A stretch of DNA of 64,000 nucleotides from Limnohabitans sp. (GTDB lineage: Bacteria; Pseudomonadota; Gammaproteobacteria; Burkholderiales; Burkholderiaceae_C). Shown here piece after piece: positions 4,114 to 26,929 of the stretch; positions within the stretch are counted from its first letter, which is position 1, and each line of letters opens with the position of its first letter. Position numbers and translations under genes: made by a program. The stretch is from the NCBI GenBank assembly GCA_018882835.1, contig VERE01000005.1, positions 1 to 64,000 on the forward strand, read 5' to 3'. The notes beneath the pieces are model-generated. The model ran no database searches, was not told the origin of the DNA, and worked only from the letters and a program-made list of their open reading frames with translations.

Positions 4114-5955
4114 ATGATGCCTAAAAAAATGATTCGCATCGGCGGCGCTTCCGGCTTTTGGGGTGACAGCCGATTGGGCGCCCTGCAATTGGTGCAGGCC
4201 GAGCCCGCCATCGATTACCTGGTGTTCGACTATCTGGCCGAAACCACCATGGCCATCCTGGCCGCTGCCAGACTGAAGAAACCCGAACTGGGTTACGCCA
4301 CCGACTTTGTCGACAGCGCCATGAAGTCGGTGCTGACAGACGTCATGGCCAAGGGCATCAAGGTGATCGCCAATGCGGGCGGCATCCACCCCGAAGGCTG
4401 TGCCCAGGCTTTGCGTGCGATGGCCAAAGACATGGGGCTGAGCCCGCGCATTGCCGTGGTGACCGGTGACGATGTCAGCGCCTTGCTGCCCGACTTGCGC
4501 GCCCAGGGTGTCACCGACATGTTCAGCGGCGAGCCCTTGCCAGAGAAAATTTTGAGCGCCAATGCCTACTTGGGGGCCTGGCCGATCGTGGAGGCTTTGC
4601 GGCAAGGCGCTGACATTGTCATCACCGGGCGCTGCGTGGACAGCGCCGTGACCCTCGCGCCCTTGATTCATGAATTTGGCTGGCAACCCACCGACTGGGA
4701 TCGTCTGGCCGGGGGCAGCCTGGGAGGGCACATCATTGAGTGCGGCTGCCAGGCCACCGGCGGCTTGTTCACCGACTGGCAGAGCGTGCCCAATTGGCCG
4801 CTAATGGGCTACCCCATCATTGAGTGCGACCCCGATGGCAGCTTTGTCGTCACCAAGGCCGCAGGCACCGGCGGCCTGATCAGCCCCGCCTCGGTGGGCG
4901 AGCAACTGCTGTATGAAATCGGTGACCCAGGGGCCTATGTATTGCCCGACGTGGTCTGCGACTTTCGGCATGTCCGGATGTCGCAAGAGGGCGAGCAACG
5001 TGTGCGGGTGAGCGGTGCCCAAGGCAGCGCGCCGCCCGACACCTACAAAGTCTCTGCCACGGCCATTGCCGGCTACCGATGCGTCGGCAGCCTGGTGTTG
5101 ATCGGTCCGCAAGCCGCCGCCAAAGCCCAGCGTACCGGCGATGCCATCGTCTCGCGCACACGGCAAATGCTGAAGGGCCTGGGTTGGCCCGACTTCACCC
5201 AGGCCGAGGTGCATCTCTTTGGCGCGGAAACACTTTATGGCGAGCAGGCGCGGACTGGCGACTCACGCGAGGTCATGGTGCGCATCTCGGTGTCCCACAA
5301 GCAGCGCGAAGCTCTGGAATTGTTTGCGCGCGAAATCGCACCGGCTGGCACCTCCTGGGCACCGGGCACCACAGGGGCCTCGGGGGGACGCCCTTCACCG
5401 TCGCCGCGCATTTTGCCGCTGGCTTTTTTGCTGGACAAAGCGCGCGTGGACGTGCGCATCCGCATGGACGATCAGCAGCATCCTGTGAACCTGCCGCTGC
5501 ACCACGGCCAGGTGAGTTCACCCGCTGCGCTGAGCTGGCCGCAGTGGCGCGAAAACGCCGAACCCCAACAAAGCATTCCGCTGGAAGCCCTGGCCTGGGC
5601 CCGCAGTGGCGACAAAGGCAACATCTCCAACATTGGACTGATTGCGCGTCGCCCCGAGTGGCTCCCCCTGATCGCTGAGCGCGTCAGCACCGACGTGGTC
5701 AAAGCCTACTTTTCCACCTTGGTCAAAGGCACGGTTGAACGGTTTTATCTGCCCGGGCTGCACGCCTTCAACTACGTGCTGCAGGATGCGCTGGACGGCG
5801 GCGGGCCTGCGTCCAACCGCGTAGACCCCCTGGGCAAAGGCATGGGGCAGATGCTGCTCGATCTGCAGGTGCGTGTGCCGCAGTCGATTGCCCGCGAGGC
5901 CCTCAGCGCACGAGCTGCGCGGCCAATTGCTGCAGACGATGCCCCGGCTGGGTGA
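4114..5955 (+). CDS. AtuA-family (DUF1446) acyclic-terpene-utilisation-like protein
   Basis: A 613-residue AtuA-family protein. The N-terminal DUF1446 part (residues ~5-450) starts with IRIGGASGFWGDSRLGALQL and contains DYLAETTMAIL, IANAGGIHPEGCAQAL, VITGRCVDSAVTLAPL and the GGSLGGHIIECGCQATGG segment. The C-terminal AtuA-like small domain (residues ~490-595) contains ARSGDKGNISNIGLIAR. In Pseudomonas, AtuA is needed for citronellol and geraniol breakdown, but its reaction is not established. Neighbouring carboxylase and dehydrogenase genes fit an Atu-like pathway. ATG occurs twice, at 4114 and 4117, after AGGAG; either could be used. Its 3' end overlaps the convergent hydrolase gene by 53 bp. 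Confidence 0.88.
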   Translation: MMPKKMIRIGGASGFWGDSRLGALQLVQAEPAIDYLVFDYLAETTMAILAAARLKKPELGYATDFVDSAMKSVLTDVMAKGIKVIANAGGIHPEGCAQALRAMAKDMGLSPRIAVVTGDDVSALLPDLRAQGVTDMFSGEPLPEKILSANAYLGAWPIVEALRQGADIVITGRCVDSAVTLAPLIHEFGWQPTDWDRLAGGSLGGHIIECGCQATGGLFTDWQSVPNWPLMGYPIIECDPDGSFVVTKAAGTGGLISPASVGEQLLYEIGDPGAYVLPDVVCDFRHVRMSQEGEQRVRVSGAQGSAPPDTYKVSATAIAGYRCVGSLVLIGPQAAAKAQRTGDAIVSRTRQMLKGLGWPDFTQAEVHLFGAETLYGEQARTGDSREVMVRISVSHKQREALELFAREIAPAGTSWAPGTTGASGGRPSPSPRILPLAFLLDKARVDVRIRMDDQQHPVNLPLHHGQVSSPAALSWPQWRENAEPQQSIPLEALAWARSGDKGNISNIGLIARRPEWLPLIAERVSTDVVKAYFSTLVKGTVERFYLPGLHAFNYVLQDALDGGGPASNRVDPLGKGMGQMLLDLQVRVPQSIAREALSARAARPIAADDAPAG

Positions 5956-6751
5956 GCGCCTCCACGATGCTGAAGTGGTTCAGGCCAGGAAGGTCTTCAC
6001 ACACTGTCACCACTTTCTTGCCCCAGGCTTTTTGAATCAGGTGGTTGTGGCGAATGAACTCTTCGCTTTCGTCGGCACCGGCCACGCTCATGAAGGTGGC
6101 ATGGTGCGGCGCGGGCAGCCACGCCGGGCTGGCTTGATCCACCTGGGCTTGTGTCAAGCGCAGGGAGGGCTGGACAAACGGCGTGCGCATCACAGACGCC
6201 AGCTCATACAAACCCGACAGGGACAAGCCCCGCTGCACCAACTGCGGGGGCAAGTCTTTGGCATAGGCTTGCCATTGGCAGGCCATGATCATGGCCGCCA
6301 AGTGTCCGCCCGCAGAGTGCCCTGCAACATGAATACGCTGCGGGTCGCCTCCCAGACGGTGAATGTTGCGGTAGGTCCAGGCCACGGCCTTGACCATTTG
6401 CATCACGATCTCGGGAATTGTGACGGCGGGTGCCAGCGCATAGTTGGGGACCACAGTCAATGCCCCCAGTTGCTTGAAGACAGGTGCCACAAAAGAATGC
6501 TCTGACTTGTCGAGCGAACGCCAGTAGCCGCCATGAATGAAAACCACCACCGGGGCATGGGCCTGCTCTGCTGGAAAAATATCCAGGCTTTCGTTTGGCC
6601 CATGGCCATAGGCCACGTCCAGCATGCACCGGTGCGCCTGACGTGCTTGCGCCGAAGTGTCGCGCCAGCGGGCAAAGTGAGTTTCGTGTTCCGGCACCAA
6701 GGCACGGTTGTTGTACATGCGGTCGTACCAAGCGCCATCGTGTTGCGTCAT
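5903..6751 (-). CDS. Alpha/beta hydrolase, kynurenine-formamidase/BD-FAE-like
   Basis: Serine hydrolase of about 282 residues. The oxyanion motif is VVVFIHGGYWRSLDKS; HGGYW is typical of the arylformamidase-like group. The nucleophile elbow is HVAGHSAGGHLAAM, with a C-terminal acid/histidine region at GADESEEF and LNHFSIVEAL. The frame opens at a TTG (6766), but GAGAGGA lies upstream of the ATG at 6751 (MTQHDGAWYDRMYNN), so that ATG is preferred. The N-terminal YDRMYNNRALVPEHE is also typical of the group. The substrate is probably a small ester or amide and cannot be fixed. It converges with and overlaps the AtuA-like gene by 53 bp, so the two transcripts are complementary there. Confidence 0.85.
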   Translation of the reverse strand: MTQHDGAWYDRMYNNRALVPEHETHFARWRDTSAQARQAHRCMLDVAYGHGPNESLDIFPAEQAHAPVVVFIHGGYWRSLDKSEHSFVAPVFKQLGALTVVPNYALAPAVTIPEIVMQMVKAVAWTYRNIHRLGGDPQRIHVAGHSAGGHLAAMIMACQWQAYAKDLPPQLVQRGLSLSGLYELASVMRTPFVQPSLRLTQAQVDQASPAWLPAPHHATFMSVAGADESEEFIRHNHLIQKAWGKKVVTVCEDLPGLNHFSIVEALTQPGHRLQQLAAQLVR

Positions 6752-6869
6752 GCCATTTCCTCTCAAGATGGCTGCTATCTTGTCATAAGCCTGAGAGGCT
6801 TGCAGTCAAGCCCGCAGCGCCTGAAAGCTAGCGTAAACCCCTAGAATTTCTTGATTTCAGTCAATGTAT

Positions 6870-6881
6870 TCTGTATACAGA
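6870..6881. promoter_or_regulatory. Perfect palindrome TCTGTATACAGA, probable GntR/FCD operator
   Basis: A perfect 12-bp inverted repeat centred on GTATAC, ending 7 bp before the start codon of the GntR-family gene. FCD-subfamily GntR regulators commonly bind T-N-GTATAC-N-A type palindromes (family knowledge), so this is most likely an autoregulatory operator that would block the whole three-gene operon. The position so close to the ATG suggests roadblock repression or overlap with the transcription start. Confidence 0.7.
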
Positions 6882-6888
6882 GTACTTT

Positions 6889-7575
6889 ATGCCTGCAGAA
6901 CTGGTCAAACTTGAAGCTTCACCGGACTTGGTCGACCAGGTCTACCGCAGTTTGCTGGACGCCATCAGCGATGGCTCCCTGCAACCCGGCGAGCACTTGG
7001 CGCAAGAAGACATCGCCCAACGTTTGGCTGTTTCGCGCCAGCCTGTGCTGCAAGCGCTTCGCCTGTTGAAGAAAGATGGCTTTGTCGAGGATGCCCCTGG
7101 CCGTGGCGTGCAAGTCACCCCGCTCAACCTGGACCACATTGCACAGCTTTACCAAGTAAGGGGCGCTCTGGACGCCCTCGCCGCCCGCTTGGCCGCCCAA
7201 TACCGCCACGCCATTGACCCCGGCTTGATCCTGCGCGGCCGCCAGGCCAAGCAACAACGCGAGGTCAAGGCCATGATCGAAGCCGACCTGGCCTTTCACC
7301 AAGCCATTTATGACGGCGCCCGTAACCCCATGATTGCCCAAGCGGCGCAACAACACTGGCATCACCTGCGTCGCGCCATGGGCGCGGTGCTGCAATCGTC
7401 CCAGCAACGCGAGACCGTCTGGGACGAGCATGCCGCCATTGCCCAAGCCATTGGGCGCGGCGATGGTGCGCTGGCCGCCGAACTCATCGAACACCATGCA
7501 CGCGAAGCGAGCCGTCAACTGACGTCGCGCATTGCGGACTCTCTCACCTCTCCCCTCCACAAGGAAACACCATGA
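6889..7575 (+). CDS. GntR-family regulator, FCD domain
   Basis: A 228-residue one-component repressor. An N-terminal winged helix (residues ~8-75: LVDQVYRSLLDAISDG, EDIAQRLAVSRQPVLQAL, LLKKDGFVEDAPGRGVQV) is followed by an all-helical FCD effector domain (~80-215) with the metal/ligand-type residues in EADLAFHQAIYDGARNP and WDEHAAIAQAI plus IEHHAREASRQL. FCD regulators usually sense a carboxylic acid or CoA-related metabolite of the pathway they control. The gene is first in an operon: its TGA overlaps the ATG of the PhyH gene as ATGA at 7572-7575. The palindrome just upstream suggests autoregulation. Confidence 0.92.
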   Translation: MPAELVKLEASPDLVDQVYRSLLDAISDGSLQPGEHLAQEDIAQRLAVSRQPVLQALRLLKKDGFVEDAPGRGVQVTPLNLDHIAQLYQVRGALDALAARLAAQYRHAIDPGLILRGRQAKQQREVKAMIEADLAFHQAIYDGARNPMIAQAAQQHWHHLRRAMGAVLQSSQQRETVWDEHAAIAQAIGRGDGALAAELIEHHAREASRQLTSRIADSLTSPLHKETP

Positions 7576-21720: not shown

Positions 21721-23805
21721 TCAGCTGCTGGCCTTCTCGGCTTTCAGGCCGACATAGATGCCTGCCACAATGATCATGCCTGCCCCCAGCCAGGTATAGC
21801 TGTCAGGCAAGTCGTCGAAGAGCCAGTACCCTACAGCCACCGAGCCGATCATTTGCCAGTAATTGAAAGGCGACACAAAGTTGGCCGGCGCATAGGTCAT
21901 GGCGCGTGCCACACAGTAGTGCCCCAATGCCCCCAACGCGCCCAAGCTGCAAAGAATCAGGGCGTCGTTCACGCTGGCCAGGGGAGTCCAGAAAAAAGGC
22001 ACAACCAGTGTGAGCAGCACCGACCCCAGTAATGCAGAGTACACCACCGACGTTTCTGGTCGGTCAATGCCCGCGACCTGGCGCGTCAGAAGCTGGTACA
22101 GCGCGTAGCAGCAAGCGTTGCCCAGGATGAGCAGCGAAGCCCAATGAAACACCGCAGAGCCGGGCCGAATGACCACCAGCACCCCGGCAAACCCGAAGAT
22201 CACGCCGATGACGCGCGACAGGCGCACTTTTTCACCCAGCATGGGCCCAGCCAGCAGCACCACAATCAAAGGCGCCGTGAAAGAAATCGATGCGGCCTGC
22301 GCCAAGGATACAAATTGAATGGCCGTGAAAAAAAGCAGCGTGGACGCCATGAGCAGCGACGACCGACCCAGTTGAAGCCAGGGTCGTTGGGTGCGCAAGA
22401 TGCCAACGCCGTATTGGGGCAACAAAACCATCAGCACCAACAACAGATGGCTCAGAGTTCGAAACCACACGACTTGCTCGGAGGTGTAGCTTTGGCTCAT
22501 CCATTTGGCCAATCCGTTCATGACTGGAAAGAAAGTGGCCGCCAGACACATGAACAATATGCCCAGCCAGGGTCGATGGCCAGAGGCCTTGGCAACTGCC
22601 GAGGAAGCGCGCTGCGGGCGATGCAAAACCCAATGCGCCAGCACCGCCAACGCCGTAAATCCCAGCATCAGGCATGAAAGGTTCACCGCGCCATCGTGTG
22701 AGACCAAGCCCACCGAGAAGCCACCCACAGCGCCCATCAACTGCTGCATCAAGCCGGCAACCGCGGCAGCAGAGCCGGCCAGCGCAGGGACCAACCCCAC
22801 CGAACCGGCCAAGGTCGGTGGCAACAGAAAACCGTGCCCCAGGCCCAGCAACATCAAGGGCATGGCGAAAGCCAGAGGCGTGTTCCAACCCCACAATCCC
22901 AGCGCCAGCGTCAGCAGCAGACCGGCTACCGTGAGTGTTTGTCCAGCCAGCATCATCTTTCTCTCGCCAACACGGCGAATCAGATGGCTCGTGGTGAAAT
23001 TCCCCACGATGTAAGACAAAGGGGCCATCATGATGTACCAACCCACCCCATCGGGCCCCACGCCGTAACTGCCCAACACCAGAGGCGCCCCGGAAAGAAA
23101 GGTGTAAAAGGTGGCCGTGGTCATGGCCAGGATGGCCACATAGGCGAGAAAGGCAGGCTCTTTTGCCAGGCGTGCATATGCCGACACCATGGCGCGCAGC
23201 CAGTGCGAATCGCTGGCTGCAACGGGCCCTTTGCTTGGGAATCCCCGCCATGCCGTCGCCAAAAGCACCACCGCCAGCGCGCTCATGGCCCAAAAGTTGG
23301 CTTGCCACCCGAAACGAACATGCAATTGCCCCCCTACGACTGTGGCCAGCGGCGGGCACAGGCCCAAGACCATGCCGATGAAGGCCATCACCCGCGTGCG
23401 TTCGGGTCCTTGAAACAAATCTTGCACCATGGAGCGCCCGACCACCATACCGGCAGCGCTGCCGGCGCCTTGCAAAACGCGCGCAAACACCAGAGCTTGT
23501 ATGTCGCTCACGCAGGCTGCCAGGACCGAACCCGCCAGGCCGAGCGTGAGGCCTGCGAACAAAATTGCACGTCGGCCGTGCCGGTCAGACAGCGGCCCGT
23601 ACACCAATTGCAAACCGCCATAGGCCATGACAAAGCCACTGAAGGTCAACTGAACCTGAGACTGCTCTGCCGAAAAAATGCTGCCCCATTCCTGCATGGA
23701 GGGCAAACAGATGGTCATGGCCAGCAAGCCGAATGCAATCTGGGCCAGCAGGTTGGCCACCATCCAGCCCGATGGCCTGTGCGCGAGTGGGGATGTCGGG
23801 CTCAT
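21721..23805 (-). CDS. MFS (Bcr/CflA-like) - EamA (DMT) double transporter fusion
   Basis: A single uninterrupted 694-codon frame encoding two complete transporter families. Residues ~1-395 are a 12-helix drug-efflux MFS unit: motif A is YGPLSDRHGRRAILFAG, with FARVLQGAGSAAGMVVGRS after it. Residues ~396-411 are a short basic linker (HRPQRASSAVAKASGHRP). Residues ~412-690 are a 10-helix DMT unit with two EamA halves: GLAKWMSQSYTSEQVVWFRT and SISFTAPLIVVLLAGPMLGEK, then the second half ending WQMIGSVAVGYWLFDDLPDSYTW. Both units are full length, so this is not a truncated remnant. MFS uses 12 helices and DMT 10, giving ~22 in one chain. Efflux of a metabolite or drug is likely, but the substrate is unknown. 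Confidence 0.88.
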   Translation of the reverse strand: MSPTSPLAHRPSGWMVANLLAQIAFGLLAMTICLPSMQEWGSIFSAEQSQVQLTFSGFVMAYGGLQLVYGPLSDRHGRRAILFAGLTLGLAGSVLAACVSDIQALVFARVLQGAGSAAGMVVGRSMVQDLFQGPERTRVMAFIGMVLGLCPPLATVVGGQLHVRFGWQANFWAMSALAVVLLATAWRGFPSKGPVAASDSHWLRAMVSAYARLAKEPAFLAYVAILAMTTATFYTFLSGAPLVLGSYGVGPDGVGWYIMMAPLSYIVGNFTTSHLIRRVGERKMMLAGQTLTVAGLLLTLALGLWGWNTPLAFAMPLMLLGLGHGFLLPPTLAGSVGLVPALAGSAAAVAGLMQQLMGAVGGFSVGLVSHDGAVNLSCLMLGFTALAVLAHWVLHRPQRASSAVAKASGHRPWLGILFMCLAATFFPVMNGLAKWMSQSYTSEQVVWFRTLSHLLLVLMVLLPQYGVGILRTQRPWLQLGRSSLLMASTLLFFTAIQFVSLAQAASISFTAPLIVVLLAGPMLGEKVRLSRVIGVIFGFAGVLVVIRPGSAVFHWASLLILGNACCYALYQLLTRQVAGIDRPETSVVYSALLGSVLLTLVVPFFWTPLASVNDALILCSLGALGALGHYCVARAMTYAPANFVSPFNYWQMIGSVAVGYWLFDDLPDSYTWLGAGMIIVAGIYVGLKAEKASS

Positions 23806-23898: not shown

Positions 23899-25485
23899 TC
23901 AGTGCGACAGAGCGTCCAAGACACGCACTGCGACAGCACCCCCAGTGCCTAATGGCAAGAGTTGCTGGCGTAAATTTTCTTCGCCTGCGGCTTGGTGCAG
24001 CAGTTGCAGTTGTGCAATCAGCACTTGGAACTGCCTGGCGGCCAAGTCTGGGTGTTGCCGCGGATCAAGTACCACCGCTGCGGTGTGATGTTTCTCCTCG
24101 CGTTGCTTGGCATGAAAGGCTTCACGGGCCTCCTGGGTCAGCCGCTGGATGTCCTCGGCCGAGAGGTGCAAGCGCTCGGTTTCCTCTGCAATCATGGCCC
24201 TGGCACGCGGGTTCAGCTCACCGCTCTCATAGGCATGCAATAACTTTTGCTTGAAGGTCTCGCGGTCAATTCGAAGTTGGTCGGTGAATGCCGAGGCCAA
24301 CAGGCCAGCAGGAATGGCAAAGATGCCAATGCCCAGCAAGGCCAGAACCACCGTCAGTGCACGACCCATCGGTGTGATGGGCGAGATATCGCCGTAGCCG
24401 ACCGAGGCCAGGGTGACGACGGCCCAGTAAATGGACTGAGGAATATTCTCGAATTTGTCCGGCTGCGCTTCATGCTCAAACAAATAGCCCATGCTGGCCG
24501 TCAAAACGACCAACAGCAACATCACGAACACCGAGGCAAAGATCACTTGCCATTCGCGCTTCACCACCTTGTAAAGCGTCACTGTGGCAGATGTGTAACG
24601 GGTCAGCTTGAGCAATCGCATCAAGCGAAACACGCGCAGGAATCGCAAGTCCAGGGCAAACGGTAAAAAATGCTCTAACAGAAAAGGCAAAATCGCCAAC
24701 AAATCAATGATGGCGTGACCCGAGCGCATGTGCGCCCAACGCGGCAACCATCGCCTCTTGTAAGCGGGATTCTCTGGCGCAGCGTACAGCCTTGCCAAGT
24801 ATTCCAGCGTGAAAATTGAAAAAGCAACGGCGTCAATCACCTTGAATTCAAACGCCAGCACGTCATGAATTGAGGCCACCGTTTCCAATACCACCGACAC
24901 GATCGACAGCAGCACCCAAAACATGATGAAGTTGTCGAAATACACATGCAACTGGCCTGAGTGGCCTGTGGGCTCCAACAGTGCGTAAAGTTTTCCCCTG
25001 AAAGATCGGCCGTGGTTCATGGCATGAAACTCTTTCCAGGCCGGAATCATGTAGCGGGACAACTTGAAAACTCGCAGCAAGCGCAACAGCCGCAAGGCGC
25101 GCAACATTTCGACATCCATCGCACCCAAGCTAGCGAGATAAAAAGGTGCGATCGCCATCAAATCGACCAAGGCGTAAAAGCTGAAGATGTAGCGCACTCG
25201 CGCAAAGCGTCGTCCGGCAAACTCCGGCTCCAGGGGGGCGATCAGAACACGTAACAGATATTCCACCGTGAAGACGCCGACCGTCATGACATCCAACACG
25301 TGAAACCAAACAGCGTAGCGGGCATGCAGCGGCTCAACGTGCTCGGCGGCAATGGCCATCACGCTGAAGATGATCAGCCAAGCCACGCCGTTTTCGACCA
25401 GGCGCGCGTGGCCCTCTTGAAAGCCCGTGTCAAAAAACCACCGGTGAAGCCAGGCCAAGCGGCCTTTCGGCGTGACTTCTAACAT
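23899..25485 (-). CDS. Voltage-gated potassium channel with an additional N-terminal voltage-sensor domain
   Basis: A 528-residue channel. Residues ~31-150 form one S1-S4 sensor whose S4 is RALRLLRLLRVFKLSRY. Residues ~185-300 form a second S1-S4 sensor with S4 LRFLRVFRLMRLLKLTRY. S5, pore and S6 follow (315-400) with selectivity filter TLASVGYGD at 358-366. The C-terminal cytosolic tail (401-528) is helical and charged (ESGELNPRARAMIAEETERL), a likely coiled coil. A standard Kv-type subunit has only one sensor. The frame is open to 25998, but GAGGA precedes the ATG at 25485 (MLEVTPKGRL) and the translation further upstream lacks any channel-like pattern. The gene diverges from an MFS gene. 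Confidence 0.85.
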   Translation of the reverse strand: MLEVTPKGRLAWLHRWFFDTGFQEGHARLVENGVAWLIIFSVMAIAAEHVEPLHARYAVWFHVLDVMTVGVFTVEYLLRVLIAPLEPEFAGRRFARVRYIFSFYALVDLMAIAPFYLASLGAMDVEMLRALRLLRLLRVFKLSRYMIPAWKEFHAMNHGRSFRGKLYALLEPTGHSGQLHVYFDNFIMFWVLLSIVSVVLETVASIHDVLAFEFKVIDAVAFSIFTLEYLARLYAAPENPAYKRRWLPRWAHMRSGHAIIDLLAILPFLLEHFLPFALDLRFLRVFRLMRLLKLTRYTSATVTLYKVVKREWQVIFASVFVMLLLVVLTASMGYLFEHEAQPDKFENIPQSIYWAVVTLASVGYGDISPITPMGRALTVVLALLGIGIFAIPAGLLASAFTDQLRIDRETFKQKLLHAYESGELNPRARAMIAEETERLHLSAEDIQRLTQEAREAFHAKQREEKHHTAAVVLDPRQHPDLAARQFQVLIAQLQLLHQAAGEENLRQQLLPLGTGGAVAVRVLDALSH

Positions 25486-25660: not shown

Positions 25661-26929
25661 TTGGGTTCAAATTTTTTGCAAGGCTCGGTTGCGGTTATTG
25701 TTTTTCTTTGTTTTGCCTTCGGATATGCACTCTCATTTGCATTGCGCACGGTCAATGCAGTCATCGCGCCCGACCTCGTGGCTGAATTCGGATTGAGCAA
25801 CGCGCAACTTGGCGCCCTTTCCAGCGCATACTTTTTCAGCTTTGCAGCCATGCAATTGCCCCTGGGCATCTGGCTGGACCGCTTTGGCTCCCGCAAAACC
25901 CATGCAAGTTTGCTGTGTGTGGCCGCCCTTGGCTGCGTCTGCTTTGGCTTGTCCCAGGAAACCTGGATGCTGTGGATCGGTCGCGCCTTGATTGGCATGG
26001 GCGTTTCGGGCGCCCTGATGGCGTCGTTCAGGGCCTTCCGATTTTGGTATCCCGTGGAACAACAGTCTCAACTGGCTTCCTGGATGCTGGTAGCGGGCTC
26101 CATGGGTGCATTGGCTTCCACCCTTCCCGTCCAATGGGCACTGCCGGTGATGGGATGGCGTGGCTTGTTCAATCTGATTGCCGTCCTGTTGCTCCTGGCC
26201 AGCATCCTGATTTTTTTCTTGCTGCCCGCTGAACCCGCACCCCAGGCCCACACTTCGGAGAATCCTTGGGCCGGTTACATCACCGTGTTCAAGGATCGCT
26301 ATTTCTGGCGTTTCGCAGCGCCCGGCATTGGCATGCAGGCCAGCTTTGTGGCCTTTCAAAGCCTATGGGCGGGCCCCTGGCTGACCCAGGTACTGGGCAT
26401 GAGCGCCGATGAAAGTGCGCAAACGCTGCTGATCTTGAATTTCTTTTTGATGATGGTTTATTTGTTGTTGGGCTGGCGTTCGCCCAAATTGGCCGCCAAA
26501 GGATGGACACCCTTGCGCATGGCGAGCATCGGTGGTTTGATCATGCTGGTCGCGCAAACTGGCATGGTCTTCATGCACGGCCCCTGGGCCTGGACACTTT
26601 GGCTGCTCTTGGGCCTGGGCTCCACCACCTTCATGCTGACCCAAACGCATGTGAACCAAAATTTTCCGCAACACCTGGCAGGACGCGCTTTCACCGCCTA
26701 CAACTTACTTCTTTTTGCCGGCATGTTCTTGGTGCAATGGCTGTTCGGGGTATTGATAGATGCGATCAGGGTTCTGGCCAGCGTCAGCCATGTTTCCGAA
26801 GCGTTTCGAGGGGCCATGCTGGTTTGGGTGGTGTTCGAAGCGGCCACCCTGGCGGTGATGGTCTTCTGGCGCGTGCCCAGAACCTATGTACCGCAGCCGG
26901 CGACACCCCCTGCCGCCAACCCCAAGTGA
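25661..26929 (+). CDS. MFS transporter (TTG start)
   Basis: A 422-residue 12-helix major facilitator. Helix 2/loop motif A reads GIWLDRFGSRKTHASLL; GRALIGMGVSGALMASFRAFRFWYP is helix 4 and the following loop. The best start is the TTG at 25661, preceded by GTGGAGTGA, since the first helix begins directly after it (NFLQGSVAVIVFLCFAFGY) and no ATG lies before helix 3. The substrate is unknown. It is divergent from the channel gene across 175 bp and converges with the cupin gene. Confidence 0.85.
   Translation: MGSNFLQGSVAVIVFLCFAFGYALSFALRTVNAVIAPDLVAEFGLSNAQLGALSSAYFFSFAAMQLPLGIWLDRFGSRKTHASLLCVAALGCVCFGLSQETWMLWIGRALIGMGVSGALMASFRAFRFWYPVEQQSQLASWMLVAGSMGALASTLPVQWALPVMGWRGLFNLIAVLLLLASILIFFLLPAEPAPQAHTSENPWAGYITVFKDRYFWRFAAPGIGMQASFVAFQSLWAGPWLTQVLGMSADESAQTLLILNFFLMMVYLLLGWRSPKLAAKGWTPLRMASIGGLIMLVAQTGMVFMHGPWAWTLWLLLGLGSTTFMLTQTHVNQNFPQHLAGRAFTAYNLLLFAGMFLVQWLFGVLIDAIRVLASVSHVSEAFRGAMLVWVVFEAATLAVMVFWRVPRTYVPQPATPPAANPK

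Follow-up and report, generated by a model that had tools for sequence, protein, structure and literature searches.

A gene of Limnohabitans sp. predicted to encode a voltage-gated potassium channel subunit with two voltage-sensor domains ahead of a single pore

The window (the whole stretch of Limnohabitans sp. DNA analysed here, 64,000 nucleotides) carries on its minus strand, at 23899..25485, an intact gene for a K+ channel subunit of 528 residues in which two S1-S4 voltage-sensor domains are followed by one pore domain; homologues were found. Judged by its sequence features, the product is a putative Kv channel that departs from the usual arrangement of one sensor for each pore domain. We consider it fairly probable that four copies of the protein form a K+-selective channel having eight sensors, the inner sensor 2 driving the gate and the outer sensor 1 tuning it.

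The frame is continuous from an ATG at 25485 to the stop codon at 23899-23901. This bears out the single uninterrupted frame of the initial annotation, in which no strand had been given; frame 1 of the plus strand contains stops over the same coordinates. A GAGG stretch ends eight bases ahead of the ATG. Because a further in-frame ATG lies 24 bases 5' of it and the frame stays open up to an ATG at 25998, the ATG at 25485 is best regarded as the probable start. The gene is adjoined by that of a 694-residue MFS-EamA protein and by a divergent MFS gene, and Pfam recognised no channel among the ten neighbouring proteins scanned. The 694-residue protein (21721-23805, minus strand) combines an MFS half and an EamA (DMT) half within one frame.

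Pfam found two Ion_trans stretches and one Ion_trans_2 stretch in the whole protein, and the first 178 residues alone matched Ion_trans over residues 34-145 with an E value of 3.2e-13. The AlphaFold2 model of the whole protein had a mean pLDDT of 85.4. Voltage-sensor domain 1 comprises residues 27-147 (25045..25407; all features named here lie on the minus strand), with modelled helices S1 at 27-48, S2 at 51-85, S3 at 103-120 and S4 at 125-156. Voltage-sensor domain 2, residues 177-298 (24592..24957), falls into the Ion_trans stretch 181-402 and was modelled with helices at 177-201, 204-238, 256-273 and 280-298. These helices agree within a few residues with the sensor boundaries proposed before, 31-150 and 185-300. 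When folded alone, sensor 1 again gave an S1-S4 bundle (mean pLDDT 87.5), and this model resembled Kv sensors in the PDB, including those of Kv4 and Shaker, in a fold search; the suggestion that residues 31-150 form a sensor has thus stood up to structure prediction. An alignment of the two sensors of the protein, 115 columns long, shows 35% identity (E 3e-20). In a hydropathy scan, S1, S2, S3, S1', S2', S3', S5 and S6 stood out as clear peaks, and the S4 helices, rich in arginine, gave weak ones.

Between the sensors lies a linker predicted to be cytosolic, residues 148-176 (24958..25044), in which the model shows the last part of the long S4 helix and then a short helix at 162-170, ahead of S1 of sensor 2; it carries the conserved motif FxxLNxGRTFRQK, given in shorter form as NxGRTFRQK. 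Sensor 2 is followed by an S4-S5 linker, residues 299-311 (24553..24591), modelled as a helix at 300-310, and by the pore domain S5-P-S6, residues 312-405 (24271..24552; Ion_trans_2 at 322-401, E 1.1e-17 in the whole protein), with S5 at 312-337, the P helix at 348-360 and S6 at 372-420. The selectivity filter TLASVGYGD occupies residues 358-366 (24388..24414), and T358, L359, S361, G363, Y364, G365 and D366 are invariant in 55 aligned rows. The lone S5-P-S6 unit and its filter are as quoted in the initial annotation, with one Ion_trans_2 stretch and one P helix plus filter. The remainder, residues 406-528 (23902..24270), was modelled as C-terminal helices, presumably cytosolic, and is the least conserved region.

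The extra sensor, whose recurrence in related genomes had been left for a homology search, proved to be common in the genus. In a search of 61 genomes, 32 of the 36 other genomes from this genus gave matches across both sensors; the matches listed for the 24 genomes from the order's other families included none. The four same-genus genomes without such a match were G011, G022, G028 and G030, of which G022 (79%) and G030 (62%) are incomplete. The genome of the window itself (assembly 98.0% complete, 5.2% contamination) holds a second copy, 48% identical, at G000:C66:76846-78282. When named genomes were scanned with the two-sensor region, the best 80 of at least 533 confirmed candidate loci comprised 72 loci in which one or more two-sensor frames run full length (74 such frames), seven cut by a contig end and one broken (L066). 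Most of these 80 come from records titled as Burkholderiales or betaproteobacterial bins (Comamonadaceae, Oxalobacteraceae, Limnohabitans, Rhodoferax, Ramlibacter, Polaromonas and others); among the records without such a title are Limnohabitans sp. Jir61 (L063) and Rhizobiales bacterium TNE-4 (L096). Several record titles mention lakes or ponds, and Limnohabitans lives in fresh water, so that the carriers of the two-sensor channel are probably freshwater bacteria.

In evenly drawn samples the two-sensor layout is rare. The family sample gave matches at 1e-40 in 12 of 399 genomes, nine of which, the window's own included, span both sensors; of the remainder, G602 has a broken copy, and G011 and G699 have the one-sensor form only, with no sensor 1 found within the 5-kb stretch of G699. 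At class level 60 of 369 genomes matched at 1e-10, and a match of two-sensor length occurred in one, the window's own. Three other rows of this sample (G171, G065 and G210) had profile ranges reaching across both sensors, yet they amount to 128-141 residues, one sensor's worth. The phylum sample yielded three matches in 398 genomes, two of them across both sensors: the window's own and that of G1170, from the same order. Two long single-sensor relatives, L153 and L154, were read by eye for a second sensor, and their extra length does not look like part of a channel.

Gemmobacter aquarius HYN0069, a named strain with fresh water as its source, encodes a distant member on a plasmid of 284 kb, the sequence of which is complete. 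This protein (L155:4818-6293, WP_159082572.1) is annotated only as 'ion transporter' and, like the window's, contains two Ion_trans stretches by Pfam. Out of 72,556 plasmid records, 80 matched at 1e-10; among the 20 of these matches listed, the one from Gemmobacter aquarius alone spans both sensors (residues 27-423, 37% identity), the other 19 starting at residue 144 or beyond. The plasmid-borne protein has fewer basic residues in both S4 helices.

Residue conservation was recounted over 75 rows, namely the window's protein and the 74 full-length copies from the best 80 loci, with the broken locus and the seven cut loci left out and with L069 retained, the C-terminal part of which is seemingly out of frame. 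Two further alignments, A3 (55 rows) and A4 (51 rows), consist of hand-picked full-length copies. In the S4 helix of sensor 1 (25054..25101), R132, R135, R138, K141 and R144 correspond to basic residues in all 75 rows and R129 in 70; in that of sensor 2 (24598..24645), all six positions, R281, R284, R287, R290, K293 and R296, are basic in every row. Both S4 sequences, with their regularly spaced arginines, are as first quoted. F72, E75 and D108 in sensor 1 and F225, E228 and D261 in sensor 2, which we take to be the counterparts of the known Kv charge-transfer residues, are retained in 74, 75 and 75 rows in either sensor. Selection was estimated from 16 close, non-overlapping pairs, from which pairs with saturated dS were removed domain by domain. 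The median dN/dS was 0.065 for sensor 1 (12 usable pairs), 0.059 for sensor 2 (13), 0.013 for the S4-S5 linker plus pore (14) and 0.091 for the C-terminus (12); one pair of low dS, L105/L110, gave 0.37 and 0.46 in the two sensors. By these medians, purifying selection on sensor 1 is about as strong as that on sensor 2 and tighter than that on the C-terminus. Mean pairwise identity was 0.512 for sensor 1, 0.577 for sensor 2 and 0.76 for the S4-S5 linker plus pore. From their residues, both sensors look functional.

The likeness to Kv1-Kv4, KCNQ and the bacterial 6TM K+ channels, such as KvAP and KvLm, extends to S1-S4 with regular S4 arginines, the F-x-x-E and D residues, the S4-S5 linker, S5-P-S6 and the GYGD filter. 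As in a Kv channel, S1-S4 and S5-P-S6 lie in one chain (Pfam Ion_trans 181-402 and Ion_trans_2 322-401, the model and the fold search), the filter is of the T-x-G-Y-G-D type in the form SVGYGD, with S replacing the usual T and with G363, Y364, G365 and D366 invariant, and every third S4 position is basic, together with the charge-transfer residues of S2 and S3, in both sensors. What sets the window's protein apart from Kv channels is a complete additional S1-S4 domain in front, so that two such domains precede the single pore. Among the matches listed, the closest solved relatives were KCNQ4 (E 3.7e-23) and Kv2.1 (E 2.1e-22) by sequence and Kv4.2/4.3 and KCNQ by fold. None of the 50 PDB fold matches listed begins before model residue 155, and none of the 60 sequence matches listed before residue 160, so that no match among them covers both sensors. 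Against the NCBIfam model NF040645 (K_channel_Meth, hyperpolarisation-activated) the protein scored 57.3 bits, below the curated cut-off of 300.

Two S1-S4 domains per chain are also present in two-pore channels (TPC), where the whole 6TM unit is repeated and the chain has two pores. Eukaryotic tandem Kv-like channels (PMC7576140) likewise share two S1-S4 domains per chain with the window's protein and differ from it in that the entire 6TM unit is duplicated and each chain has two pores, as opposed to one here. The window's protein lacks such a second pore domain, since it contains a lone Ion_trans_2 stretch, P helix and filter. Sensor 1 resembles Hv1 in being an S1-S4 domain without an S5-S6 of its own; Hv1, however, is a separate proton channel, whereas sensor 1 is fused to a full Kv channel, and the presence of the pore distinguishes the protein from stand-alone voltage sensors. 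No recognisable paper on a layout of two sensors and one pore was found in open-licence full texts, nor was a solved structure of this kind found among the PDB matches listed. Both results are consistent with the earlier statement that no bacterial channel of this layout is known to have been characterised.

Within the same genus a sister clade lacks sensor 1. Its proteins, of 388-406 residues (e.g. L036, L037 and L048), are 40-45% identical to the window's protein and share with it the linker motif, here N-terminal, and a similar filter; they differ in starting at the linker and in having one sensor, which groups with sensor 2 (100/99). Because these proteins open with the same linker, sensor 1 appears to be an add-on ahead of an otherwise complete channel. 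Relatives of this form, beginning at or near the inter-sensor linker, were seen at L036, L037, L038, L044, L045, L046, L048 and L157. A tree was built from 99 sensor domains, with 31 two-sensor proteins represented, among them the window's and those of 28 loci hand-picked from A3 for spread. In this tree, which came with program warnings about the small number of columns and about the meeting of long branches, sensor 1 formed one group (100/100), sensor 2 formed another (97/90), and sensor 2 and the sister clade came together to the exclusion of sensor 1. Since sensor 2 groups with the sister clade and sensor 1 stands apart, sensor 1 does not seem to have arisen from within the present sensor-2 clade. 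A tree that joins sensor 1 to sensor 2 plus the sister clade (p 0.41) was not rejected by the AU test, and neither was one that joins it to the sensors of the partner genes described below (p 0.465). Sensor 1 may thus stem from an old internal duplication or be akin to the sensors of these partners.

The second dual-sensor gene of the window's genome heads a run of three genes (L031: 3733-5388 for the dual-sensor gene, then 5419-6372 and 6369-7340), and from their spacing the paralogue and its two Kv partners probably form a single operon. Similar arrangements recur. Outside the window's group, a set of 27 genes defined by a list of loci (L051-L076 and L086) and not by the tree, there are 53 loci; 43 genes there have more than 1 kb of downstream sequence, and 21 of them have a Kv gene within the next 400 bases and a second one after it, all in the same direction. 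No such neighbour was found for the other 22, nor for 24 of the 27 genes in the window's group, the remaining three being accounted for by two pairs of dual-sensor genes and one split gene. The first partner has matches at 1e-60 in 42 of the 61 genomes of the genus search, with at least two matches in 38 of these 42. Both partners have filters one residue short, e.g. TITSGYGN, TIISGWGN or TIVSGWGN, as compared to TLASVGYGD of the dual-sensor subunit, which suggests that they might give rise to mixed channels with changed selectivity or be silent subunits. Pairs of single-sensor Kv genes with short filters were observed at L031:5419-7340 (G000:C66), at L042:6823-8698 (Jir61) and at many related loci.

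In the arrangement that we favour, each subunit would contribute ten membrane helices, made up of sensor 1, the cytosolic linker, sensor 2 and the single pore. Four subunits would surround a common K+-selective pore; their sensor-2 domains would form an inner ring of four, and their sensor-1 domains an outer one, likewise of four. As each sensor has six basic S4 residues, a tetramer would contain 48 of them as compared to 24, a residue count and not an effective gating charge. Upon a change in membrane potential the arginines of both S4 helices would move. Sensor 2 should open the gate directly, because the 11-residue helix 300-310, placed like the usual S4-S5 linker, joins it to S5. Sensor 1 lacks its own S5, and its S4 continues as one helix (125-156) into the linker and its short helix; it would therefore most likely act on the pore via sensor 2 by shifting or sharpening the voltage dependence. 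A bolder version appears tentative to us: two concentric rings of working sensors, eight per pore, the outer reaching the gate solely through the inner and producing a steeper or two-step response, with the dual-sensor subunit of the paralogue joining its two short-filter partners in a mixed channel. Work on how sensors jointly open a pore mostly relies on channels with four sensors per pore or on engineered concatemers. The two-sensor family and its sister family without the outer sensor offer a natural test of whether additional gating charge unattached to S5 can drive or tune a pore, and of whether coupling can pass from sensor to sensor. They suggest that in some freshwater bacteria voltage sensing has been elaborated beyond current single-sensor models.

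The tuning role assigned to sensor 1 has to be weighed against the view that it is a true S1-S4 domain which no longer reports voltage to the pore and serves in assembly, membrane placement or docking of a partner. The sister clade, which retains the remaining channel without it, the somewhat lower pairwise identity of sensor 1 compared to sensor 2 and to the S4-S5 linker plus pore, and the absence of an S5 of its own would all fit. A mere scaffold would be expected to shed its S4 charges, however, and five gating-charge positions are basic in all 75 full-length members, the charge-transfer centre is retained and dN/dS is near that of sensor 2; we therefore regard this view as unlikely. Less likely still is that the dual-sensor subunit acts mainly in mixed channels with single-sensor subunits, which would have fewer than eight sensors. 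The partner pairs behind 21 of the 43 genes with room downstream outside the window's group and the frequency of the first partner in the genus speak in its favour, but the pattern is missing from the other 22 and from 24 of the 27 genes in the window's group, and none of the ten scanned neighbours of the window's own gene was recognised as a channel.

Conduction of protons or cations by sensor 1 itself, as in Hv1, which likewise consists of S1-S4 without its own S5-S6, is very improbable. The selectivity aspartate of Hv1 sits in the middle of S1; S1 of sensor 1 (27-48) is acidic only near its ends, with E31 near the inner and E48 at the outer end and none in mid-helix, and its S4 is of the plain Kv type. 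That two genes were fused by a sequencing or assembly error deserves next to no credence. Two broken copies elsewhere (L066 and L131) demonstrate that errors or decay occur, with nothing of the kind in the window's gene. A frame error or chimera, the former a doubt raised at the outset, is ruled out: 72 of the best 80 loci, most of the sampled genomes of the genus and one complete plasmid have the same unbroken frame through both sensors, and the conserved linker crosses the join.

The break lies in sensor 2 in L131 (from G602) and in the pore region in L066, and may reflect either decay or sequencing error. At two loci (L073:2571-5803 and L074:2370-5581) two dual-sensor genes lie adjacent to each other in the same direction.
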